Shown here: positions 59,646 through 64,000 of the stretch, piece by piece
Numbering within the stretch: position 1 is the stretch's first letter
Layout of the letters: every line of letters begins with the position of its first letter
Assembly: GCF_020515625.1 (NCBI RefSeq)
Contig: NZ_JAIWPJ010000003.1
Coordinates: 124,001 to 188,000 of the forward strand
DNA length: 64,000 nt
Direction of reading: 5' to 3'
DNA from: Natrinema amylolyticum
GTDB lineage: Archaea > Halobacteriota > Halobacteria > Halobacteriales > Natrialbaceae
Program-made: the position numbers and the translations under genes
The notes under the pieces: model-generated
What the model was told of the DNA's origin: nothing
What the model saw: only the letters and a program-made list of their open reading frames with translations
The model's database searches: none

Positions 59646-61226
59646 TTAGCTGAACTTCTGGACCGTCACGTCCAGCGTGTCCAGATCGACGATGGGTGCG
59701 AAGCCGGCGTCGGGATCGATGTTGACGCTCTTCTGGAAGTCCGTCTGGGCCTGCCAGCAGCCGGAATTGATCGCGAGCACGTCGTGATACTTGCCGAATC
59801 CGAGCTTGTGGACGTGACCAGTATGGAAGATATCCGGTACCTCGTCGATGATGAGATAGTCCTTCTCCTCGGGAGCCAGCCGGGTGTGACCGCCGAACTG
59901 CGGCGCGACGTGGCGCTTCTTGAGGAGGTGATACATCGCCTTGTGCGGGTCGTCGTAGCTGGCCTTCGCCTCGGGAAGCTCGGCGATGACCTCGTCCAGC
60001 GAGACCCCGTGGTACATCAGGACGGAGACGCCCTCGAGGGTCACCATCGACGGGTTGCTCACGATCTGTGGGTCGTGTGCGGACATGATTTCCCGAAGTT
60101 CCTCGTCGAATCCGGGCTGGGGCTCGGCGAGGCGGACCGCGTCGTGGTTCCCCGGAATCATGACGACCTCGATATCGCCCGGGATCTTTTTTAAGTGCTC
60201 GCTGAACGCCTCGTACTGCTCGTAGATGTCGACGATGTCGAGTTCGTCGTCCTGATCGGGGTAGACGCCGACGCCCTCGACCATGTCGCCCGCGAGCAAC
60301 AGGTACTCGACGTGTTGGGCTTCGGGAGTGTGCAGCCAGTCGGCGAACGCGTTCCACGCGTCGGCCATGAACTCCTGACTGCCGACGTGGACGTCGCTGA
60401 TCAGCGCCGCCTGCACGTGGCGATCCGCCGTCGACGGCTCGTGAGTGCGGGGAACGTCCGGAAAGTGCATCGAGTCGACGAACGCGATTCCCGAATCGTC
60501 CGCCAGGGTCCCCTCCATCGCCAGCACCTCGTCACAGAGCAGTTCGTTGACGAGGTCGGCGTAGTCCCTGTCTTTCATCACCAGCCAGGGGAAGGTCCCG
60601 GTCGCGTCCTCGAGTTCGATCAGCCAGTGGCCGCTGGCCGTCGACCGGATATCGTTGACCAGCCCGACCATCGCCACCTCGCTGCCGCCCGGCATGTCCT
60701 GAATGGCCGTCGCCGGGCGGTGATTGACCCGTCCCCGCAGTTTCGCGCCCAGTCGATCGAGCCGGTCGCGAAAGACGGAGACGAAGTCGCTGTACTCGCC
60801 CGTCCCCGTGCTCTGACCGGTCATATCGCCGACGATCTCGAGCGATCGCTGGGCGGGATCGGCGGACCGATCGGCTGACGGAGACCCCTCCGTTTCAACT
60901 GGAGATCGACCGGTCGATCCGCCCCCCTGAGGCGGCTCGGTTCCAGTTGAAACGGAGGGGGTCGAATCGGCGGGCGAGGGCTCGTCTCCGGTCGCAGCGA
61001 CGGGATCGGCTTCGGATCCCGCCGACCCCGCATCGGCCGTCGACAGAACGGTCTCGACGTGTTCGGTCCGGACGACCAGTGCGTCGTCCGGAATCTCCTC
61101 GAGGACGCGCTCGAGTGCCGCATTCGGGTCCTCGGCCGCCGCGAGCCGCGTCACCGCCTCGCGTTCGGCGTTGTACCCGCGGCTCGTGAGTTCGCCGACG
61201 ATCCGAGCGGGGGCCTCGAGTGGCAC
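59646..61226 (-). CDS. polD1: DNA polymerase D small subunit (DP1)
   Basis: 526 residues from GTG 61226 (VPLEAPARIVGELTSRGYNA); the frame continues upstream to 61625 but with unlikely composition. An N-terminal helical domain (1-65), a Ser/Thr/Pro/Gly linker (about 70-140), an OB fold (GLVNDIRSTASGHWLIELED) and a calcineurin-type phosphoesterase (ALISDVHVGSQEFM; LLLAGDMVEGVGVYPD; VVMIPGNHDAVRLAEP; MYHGVSLDEV; IFHTGHVHKLGFGKYH). All metal-binding residues for 3'-5' exonuclease action are present. With DP2 it forms the archaeal replicative polymerase D. No intein. Confidence 0.93.
   Translation of the reverse strand: MPLEAPARIVGELTSRGYNAEREAVTRLAAAEDPNAALERVLEEIPDDALVVRTEHVETVLSTADAGSAGSEADPVAATGDEPSPADSTPSVSTGTEPPQGGGSTGRSPVETEGSPSADRSADPAQRSLEIVGDMTGQSTGTGEYSDFVSVFRDRLDRLGAKLRGRVNHRPATAIQDMPGGSEVAMVGLVNDIRSTASGHWLIELEDATGTFPWLVMKDRDYADLVNELLCDEVLAMEGTLADDSGIAFVDSMHFPDVPRTHEPSTADRHVQAALISDVHVGSQEFMADAWNAFADWLHTPEAQHVEYLLLAGDMVEGVGVYPDQDDELDIVDIYEQYEAFSEHLKKIPGDIEVVMIPGNHDAVRLAEPQPGFDEELREIMSAHDPQIVSNPSMVTLEGVSVLMYHGVSLDEVIAELPEAKASYDDPHKAMYHLLKKRHVAPQFGGHTRLAPEEKDYLIIDEVPDIFHTGHVHKLGFGKYHDVLAINSGCWQAQTDFQKSVNIDPDAGFAPIVDLDTLDVTVQKFS
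60885..60960. repeat. 19-bp inverted repeat inside polD1 resembling a pair of ORB elements
   Basis: 60885-60903 (CCCCTCCGTTTCAACTGGA) and 60942-60960 (its exact complement) face each other 38 bases apart; 60904-60919 between them is a 16-bp palindrome (GATCGACC/GGTCGATC). Each arm reads TCCAGTTGAAACGGAGGGG, close to archaeal origin-recognition boxes (a TCCA..GAAAC core then a G-run) as I remember them. It occupies codons 89-114 of the disordered DP1 linker, about 2.7 kb from the end of orc1. The repeat is certain; ORB identity is inference. Confidence 0.7.
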
Positions 61227-61384: not shown

Positions 61385-62350
61385 ATGGACGGTCCCGACG
61401 GCGGCGAGCGTGATGACGATCGGTCCGGATCCCGCAACGAGCGCTCGAGACCGGATCCGTCTCGGGGAGACGAAACCGGGAATCGTACGCCCGAATCGCG
61501 TGATCGCACATCCGAATCCGCCGACCGGACGTCCGAACGCGACGACCGGGCGTCCGACTCCGGAACGCGAGACCGGACGACTCGCGACGATCGGGGTCGC
61601 GCGACCCGCGACGACGGCGTCGCAATCGAGGACGGCATCGGTCGCTGGCTGCTCGAGAGCGACGACTGGCGAGTCACTGCGTGTCGAGACGTCGCGACGA
61701 GTCTCGCGATCATTGCGGTCCTCGTCCTCCTCCTGTTCGGAATCAGCGGGACCTGGCCGTCGTTCGTCGCCGTCGAGAGCGGCAGCATGGAGCCGAACGT
61801 CCGGGAGGGAGACCTCGTCTTCGTCGTCGACGACGATCGGTTCGCCGGGGGGAGCGCCGTCGCCGAAACCGGTGTCGTCACCCTCGAGAGCGGACGAGCC
61901 AGCGGGCACGAGAGATTCGCCAGCCCCGGCGACGTCGTCATCTTCGTGCCGAACGGCGATCCGACGGAGACGCCGACGATCCACCGTGCCCACTTCTGGG
62001 TCGAAGCGGGCGAGCGATGGGTCGAGACCAAAGCCGATCCCGACTCCCTGAACGGTGCGACCTGCAACGAAATCGTCACCTGTCCGGCACCTCACGACGG
62101 ATTCGTCACGAAAGGCGACGCCAATCCCGGCTACGACCAACTGCCGCGCTCGGGCGCGGACACGACGATCGTCAGTCCGGACTGGATCACCGGGAAGGCG
62201 ATGCTTCGGGTTCCGTGGATCGGAGAGTTCCGGCTGGCGGTCGGGTCGGCGGGTGCAGCGACCGGGTTGGGACCGACGGCTACCTTCGTCGCGACGGGCG
62301 TGATCGCGCTCGTCTTGTTCGGGATGGCCGGCGGGGAACGCGAGTCGTGA
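61385..62350 (+). CDS. Signal peptidase I, S26 family (copy 1)
   Basis: 321 residues. The first 75 are an acidic, Arg/Asp/Ser-rich cytosolic tail (RTSESADRTSERDDRASDSG). One N-terminal helix (SLAIIAVLVLLLFGISGTWP) is followed by catalytic Ser in AVESGSMEPNVREGDLVFVV, His in TIHRAHFWVEAGERWVET, and TKGDANPGYDQ with the Asp, as in archaeal/ER-type Sec11. A C-terminal helix (FVATGVIALVLFGMAGG) ends it. It removes Sec signal peptides. Tandem with a paralogue, next to polD1. Confidence 0.9.
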   Translation: MDGPDGGERDDDRSGSRNERSRPDPSRGDETGNRTPESRDRTSESADRTSERDDRASDSGTRDRTTRDDRGRATRDDGVAIEDGIGRWLLESDDWRVTACRDVATSLAIIAVLVLLLFGISGTWPSFVAVESGSMEPNVREGDLVFVVDDDRFAGGSAVAETGVVTLESGRASGHERFASPGDVVIFVPNGDPTETPTIHRAHFWVEAGERWVETKADPDSLNGATCNEIVTCPAPHDGFVTKGDANPGYDQLPRSGADTTIVSPDWITGKAMLRVPWIGEFRLAVGSAGAATGLGPTATFVATGVIALVLFGMAGGERES

Positions 62351-62414
62351 GGCGACGGGCGAACGATCCCCGCGAACGGAAAGTTGATTGGGCGGCCCGG
62401 CAAAACCAGTGACG

Positions 62415-63392
62415 ATGAGCGGTTCTAGTGCCGGGAACCCCCCGGACGATTCCGGCGACGACGATCGCGCGCAGGATCGAAGCGCCGGCAGTTCGCAAAC
62501 GCCGCCCGCACCCGAGAAACCGTCCCGGAGTGCCGCCGACTCCGACTCCAATGCCGACGGCGTGACGATCGACGACGACGGGATCCTCCGCTGGTTCCTC
62601 AAGACCGACGACGAGACCGTCATGGTGGCGCGGGATCTCTTGAGTAGCATCGCCATCGTCGCCGTCGTCGGCCTCCTCCTATTCGGCGTCAGCGGCATCT
62701 GGCCCCCGCTCGTCGCCGTCGAGAGCGGCAGCATGGAGCCCAACATGCACAGGGGCGATCTCATCTTCGTCGCGGACGAGGGCCGATTCGCCGGTGACGC
62801 TTCCGTCGCCGGAACCGGCGTCGTCACCCTCGAGAACGGCCAGGAGAGCGGCCACGACAAGTTCGGCAATCCCGGCGACGTGATTATCTTCCGACCCAAC
62901 GGCAATGCGGCCGAAACGCCGGTGATCCACCGCGCCCACTTCTGGGTCGAAGAAGGGGAACACTGGGTCGATACCAAGGCCAGCGAGGAGATCGTCGGCG
63001 ATGCGACCTGTGAGGAAGTCGTGACCTGTCCCGCCGATCACGCCGGCTTCGTTACGAAAGGTGACAACAACGGCGGCTACGATCAGCTGAGAGGATCCGG
63101 TGCCAGAACCGATATCGTCAAATCCGAATGGGTCACCGGGAAAGCCATGTTCCGGATCCCGTGGCTCGGCCACGTGCGCCTGACCTTCGACAAGGTCCTC
63201 GGTGGGATGCTTGCTCCGACGTCGCCCTCGAGCGCGACGCTACATGGACCGACACCGGCGATGACGCCGACGCTCGCCGGTCCGGACACTGCTGGTACTG
63301 GCCCCGGACTGGACGGTGAACTCGCCGGCGTCGCCGCCATTGCCAGTACCGGAGCCGGGGCCACGATCGCGATCGGCCGATACCGTAACTGA
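62415..63392 (+). CDS. Signal peptidase I, S26 family (copy 2)
   Basis: 325 residues from ATG 62415 (MSGSSAGNPPDDSGDDDRAQ). Same layout as copy 1: acidic tail, helix SSIAIVAVVGLLLFGVSGIW, Ser in AVESGSMEPNMHRGDLIFVA, His in VIHRAHFWVEEGEHWVDT, Asp in VTKGDNNGGYDQL. The C-terminus is diverged (Pro/Thr/Gly-rich, then GVAAIASTGAGATIAIG). Between polD1 and orc1 it holds the position of sec11b in Haloferax. Sixty-four bases separate it from copy 1. Confidence 0.88.
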   Translation: MSGSSAGNPPDDSGDDDRAQDRSAGSSQTPPAPEKPSRSAADSDSNADGVTIDDDGILRWFLKTDDETVMVARDLLSSIAIVAVVGLLLFGVSGIWPPLVAVESGSMEPNMHRGDLIFVADEGRFAGDASVAGTGVVTLENGQESGHDKFGNPGDVIIFRPNGNAAETPVIHRAHFWVEEGEHWVDTKASEEIVGDATCEEVVTCPADHAGFVTKGDNNGGYDQLRGSGARTDIVKSEWVTGKAMFRIPWLGHVRLTFDKVLGGMLAPTSPSSATLHGPTPAMTPTLAGPDTAGTGPGLDGELAGVAAIASTGAGATIAIGRYRN

Positions 63393-63649: not shown

Positions 63650-64000
63650 TCAGTTCTCGAACCGCGCCTGAACGAACGGCTGGACGTCGTCGATATCGCT
63701 CAGTCGGGAGTCGCTCAGTAACACGGCCTCCGTCTCTTCGAGTGGAACGGAGAGACTGATCTCCTTGGTCCGGCCGTACCGTCCCTTCGAGACGACGACG
63801 GCGTTGACGATCCCGAGCATGTCGAGTTCGCTGATGAGATCCGTCACGCGCCGCTGGGTCAACACGTCCGCGTCGATCTCCTCGCAGAGGCGCTTGTAGA
63901 TGTTGAACACCTCGCCCGTGTTGATGCTATGAACGCCGTTTTTCTCGAGCAGGATGATCGCGAAGAGGACGAGTTTGCTCTGGGTGGGCAGCGTGCGGAC
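63650..64000 (-). CDS. orc1: Orc1/Cdc6 replication initiator (C-terminal fragment)
   Basis: 117 codons including the stop, open to the right edge. The fragment is the end of the AAA+ lid and the winged-helix domain: TLPTQSKLVLFAIILLEKNG, TGEVFNIYKRLCEEIDADVL, RRVTDLISELDMLGIVNAVV and SKGRYGRTKEISLSV. This binds ORB sequences at archaeal origins. The order orc1 - signal peptidase - polD1 matches my memory of the main Haloferax origin region, so this is likely the oriC1-associated copy. The promoter and origin would be beyond base 64000. Confidence 0.92.
   Translation of the reverse strand, partial: VRTLPTQSKLVLFAIILLEKNGVHSINTGEVFNIYKRLCEEIDADVLTQRRVTDLISELDMLGIVNAVVVSKGRYGRTKEISLSVPLEETEAVLLSDSRLSDIDDVQPFVQARFEN

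Follow-up and report, generated by a model that had tools for sequence, protein, structure and literature searches.

In bacteria, the datA locus promotes the hydrolysis of DnaA-ATP together with IHF. Like other DnaA-box clusters it is initiator-binding DNA, which lies near the origin and is replicated early. In the archaeon Haloarcula hispanica, the non-origin origin recognition boxes (ORBs) of oriC2D, located near cdc6E, restrain the origin oriC2, and a titration of Cdc6E has been proposed (PMC3936714). As few as two of these ORBs suffice for an intermediate effect (PMC3936714). oriC2D is intergenic, lies downstream of cdc6E and contains 11 ORBs for Cdc6E. The Orc1/Cdc6A origin oriC1, described e.g. 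for Halobacterium, Haloferax and Haloarcula, carries ORBs with the core TCCANYYGAAACGRAGGGG in an outward inverted orientation, 190-900 bp apart and in the neighbourhood of orc1. Published surveys of haloarchaeal origins searched only the intergenic regions beside orc/cdc6 genes (PMC3528665).

In the window, i.e. the whole stretch of 64,000 nucleotides from Natrinema amylolyticum analysed here, a pair of such boxes is situated inside a gene. This gene, polD1 (59646-61226, minus strand), encodes DP1, the small (exonuclease) subunit of DNA polymerase D. About 0.3 kb into it, within its first fifth, there are two 19-nt arms at 60885-60903 and 60942-60960, which are 100% complementary and separated by 38 nt. 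The left arm reads TCCAGTTGAAACGGAGGGG on the minus strand and the right arm reads the same on the plus strand, both with the G-string outwards and both kept class-wide. The 38-bp spacer (60904-60941) has a fixed length and an unconserved sequence. At protein level the pair corresponds to a disordered linker of DP1, about residues 90-116. The perfect 19-bp inverted repeat in the polD1 linker noted in the first-pass annotation is exact, and the given distance of 2.7 kb to the gene of the Orc1/Cdc6 initiator agrees with the orc1 stop codon at 63650 (3' part at 63650-64000, minus strand, running past the window; whole gene at L009:3650-5440). The 16-bp palindrome named as part of the same element, GATCGACCGGTCGATC at 60904-60919, exists as well, but we treat it as incidental and rejected it as a functional part, because it adjoins the left arm, is off-centre, occurs in only a few close genomes and lacks conservation within the genus. 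Between DP1 and orc1, two signal-peptidase-like genes with similar sequences follow each other in tandem (61385-62350 and 62388-63392).

Judged by its motif, TCCAGTTGAAACGGAGGGG is an oriC1-type ORB, since the DP1 arms contain the core dyad TCCANYYGAAAC together with the short G-string RAGGGG. The oriC1 of this genome is located about 5 kb from the pair, beyond the window and upstream of orc1 (G000:C3:190029-190384). Its ORBs TCCACCCGAAACGAAGGGG (minus strand) and TCCACTCGAAACGAAGGGG (plus strand) point outwards like the DP1 pair and are 337 bp apart around AT-rich DNA. The earlier suggestion of a resemblance to archaeal ORBs is therefore borne out by motif and orientation. The proposal built on it, a satellite Orc1-binding site in a tolerant linker, is supported in all parts that can be computed; the absence of a similar motif from the origin itself, which would have spoken against such a site, does not apply because oriC1 beyond position 64,000 carries the same core. 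The exact sequence TCCANTNGAAACGNAGGGG was found at four places in the 4.7-Mb genome (both DP1 arms, one of the oriC1 ORBs, and a further site at a distance of 34 kb from oriC1) and the reversed control at none; allowing 2 mismatches, the same genome contains 13 sites compared to 1 for the control. The TCCANYYGAAACGRAGGGG pattern is present in 132 of the 145 class genomes, and none of them contains the reversed control pattern.

The DP1 pair shares with the haloarchaeal oriC1 ORBs the core, the outward inverted orientation and the orc1 neighbourhood, but it is intragenic, spaced by 57 bp and devoid of two further features of oriC1. We detected no AT-rich unwinding element between its inverted ORBs, where the 38-bp spacer is GC-rich (mean GC 0.67 for DP1 spacers vs 0.51 between oriC1 ORBs). 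The extended halophile G-string follows 57 of 74 and 74 of 74 arms at oriC1 but only 1 of 95 right and 1 of 95 left arms in DP1. In Haloarcula hispanica, mutation of the extended G-string abolishes oriC1 function (PMC3936714). Because both the AT-rich element and the extended G-string are missing, the DP1 pair should hold Orc1 without firing, and it is unlikely to be a replication origin. It is similar to oriC2D, whose ORBs are likewise not expected to fire and are close to, yet separate from, the origin and the initiator gene (here 5 kb from oriC1 and 2.7 kb from orc1). Unlike oriC2D, it comprises a single pair, predicted to serve the conserved Orc1, and it is intragenic and class-wide. The likeness to datA and the DnaA-box clusters is a functional analogy only; initiator and motif are unrelated.

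A protein search located DP1 in each of the 145 class genomes, and 131 DP1 genes from 10 families were scanned, an outward pair being accepted with up to 6 of the 32 specified positions off. Such a pair was present in 119 of the 131 genes, with a start-to-start spacing of 57 bp in 105, 54 bp in 11 and 69 or 75 bp in three. All 28 complete DP1 genes of the genus hold the pair, and a search of the family with the strict outward pattern matched 24 genomes, with the sites in DP1 and zero matches for the control. In the phylum (296 genomes) the core pair is confined to Halobacteria save for one isolated candidate, G438, the single match of the loose pair pattern among approximately 224 genomes of other classes. 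The distance from the pair to the start codon takes 42 distinct values and that to the next conserved block, DMTG, 22, so that the spacing of the pair is maintained independently of the remaining linker. The linker around the pair varies freely while the pair is kept, as expected of a site embedded in a tolerant region. Deviations were found in Haloferax, where the pairs are degraded (L314, L318, L320 and L321), and in g32, a large genus of the same family, where DP1 keeps only one ORB, a perfect one. These losses are natural cases which can be compared against differences in origin use.

The codons show that the oriC1-type pair inside the DP1 gene of Halobacteria is kept by selection on DNA. 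For each gene, 40 synonymous recodings were drawn according to the codon usage of that gene, and none of the 5240 recodings contained the pair at up to 2 mismatches, compared to 60% of the real DP1 genes. In a comparison of one DP1 gene per genus (60 genera), the arm codons were near-fixed though rare in these GC-rich genes: ACT in 47 of 47 (9% elsewhere in the same genes), GTT in 42 of 43 (10%), GGA in 47 of 48 (13%), CCA in 50 of 53 (11%) and GAA in 56 of 56 (30%), whereby these counts are not independent events because the sequences are related, but span ten families. Amino acid substitutions in the arms preserve the third base of the codon, and with it the ORB base (GCT, GGT, GCA), and free codon variation is found mainly at degenerate positions of the ORB consensus, e.g. 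GTT/GTC and TCA/TCG. The question raised beforehand, whether the linker DNA is conserved more than its protein in relatives, can be answered with yes, by far and class-wide.

Further ORBs were found around the origin. A census, which is a sample, covered 148 exact ORBs among the matches listed from 50 genomes: 86 lay no more than 3 kb from orc1 and 26 inside DP1. Another 4 were on contigs other than that of orc1, and of the remaining 32 listed sites, on the same contig, 31 were within 71 kb of orc1. This clustering recalls bacterial parS or initiator-titration sites around origins. A lone oriC1-type ORB, 34 kb from oriC1 (G000:C3:224628-224646; L010:4628-4646), follows tRNA-Gln(CTG) at a distance of about 45-50 bp. 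It is conserved in the genus, and two further families carry such an ORB at this tRNA (L195:1439; L214:5049). In one family, an ABC-transporter ATPase gene situated about 8 kb from orc1 contains an ORB within its coding sequence (L207:1533; similar copy at L203:1522), translated in the frame that DP1 uses (PVETKG). Other satellites are located downstream of unrelated genes, and the satellites outside DP1 differ between families.

The specificity of Orc1 for ORBs is established. Together with the identity of the motif it indicates that two Orc1 monomers very probably bind the DP1 pair, presumably with their winged-helix ends inwards and the G-strings outwards at the fixed 57-bp spacing. There is about an even chance that the pair and its satellites form a non-firing, Orc1-holding locus near the origin which limits re-initiation. 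Orc1 would be held close to oriC1 without firing; the pair, being beside the origin, would be copied just after initiation and thus be available in duplicate, and together with the satellites within about 70 kb it would lower the Orc1 available to oriC1. This might be titration or negative control, parallel to the action of oriC2D on oriC2 in Haloarcula. Against titration, two sites may be few compared to the Orc1 copy number in polyploid cells, and the degraded pair of Haloferax and the single ORB of g32 also count against it. The literature searched yielded neither ChIP nor footprint nor expression data on the haloarchaeal Orc1 at the DP1 pair.

The main rival to titration is a control of DP1 transcription, in which Orc1 on an intragenic operator would block or modulate transcription and couple the supply of polymerase D to initiator activity. 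We consider it possible, though rather unlikely. The position close to the beginning of the gene, in its first fifth, is consistent with an operator, and bacterial DnaA regulates polA and nrdAB (PMC8203912). The site also travels with the gene: in 17 sampled genomes DP1 is relocated 14-222 kb from orc1, and most keep the pair (g32 one perfect ORB), which is retained in DP1 genes at 14-194 kb from orc1. A loss of the pair when DP1 leaves orc1 was considered and rejected, there being no significant effect of distance (p = 0.17 within family f4); outside f4, DP1 genes far from orc1 retain it. Retention in relocated genes fits DP1 regulation at least as well as titration, and alone does not show the latter. 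However, a role specific to DP1 would not explain the whole set, because other exact ORBs near the origin are in unrelated genes or between genes (ABC ATPase, tRNA-Gln).

It is doubtful that Orc1 on scattered ORBs bridges or marks the origin domain, as an architecture or segregation mark comparable to bacterial parS. The strong clustering of satellites around orc1 and the fixed geometry of the pair would suit such a mark, but the satellites outside DP1 vary between families, haloarchaea are polyploid and we know of no archaeal bridging role for Orc1. Very improbable is a backup or secondary origin inside DP1, for which the inverted, outward ORBs would speak, given the short GC-rich spacer and the lack of the G-string whose mutation kills oriC1 function (PMC3936714). 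The recurring peptide PSVSTG...SPVETEG and the complementary arms would suggest that a protein motif or an RNA stem is the target of selection, but this can practically be dismissed: synonymous recoding and codon fixation exclude the former, the independently varying arms rule out the latter (in 38 of 92 pairs the two arms do not have the same position 7, which disrupts the stem, and they are not significantly associated), and the same word occurs at oriC1 and in non-coding DNA.

A review places DP1 near oriC1 (PMC7776575), and a text search of it gave no hit for an ORB inside this gene. In the literature covered, which includes only a minority of the subscription papers, no intragenic ORB came up, in DP1 or elsewhere, so that our priority is uncertain. 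Surveys restricted to intergenic regions missed these conserved ORBs. The DP1 pair has the look of a cryptic element that controls the initiation of chromosome replication, and as a class-wide, DNA-selected non-origin pair in a replisome gene it is a precise target for studies of how archaea prevent an origin from firing twice. Tentatively, and with less than even confidence, we propose that Halobacteria might possess an origin-linked network of non-firing Orc1 sites with the DP1 pair as its ancient core, coupling initiator level, re-initiation control and the supply of replicative polymerase. Silent mutations remove the pair and leave the protein untouched, therefore initiation control or initiator-polymerase coupling is directly testable, and Haloarcula already has the oriC1 genetics for such tests. 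In two genomes (G009 and G010), about 155 kb separates the oriC1-like ORBs from the cluster of orc1 and DP1; a rearrangement appears to have split the origin from the initiator gene.
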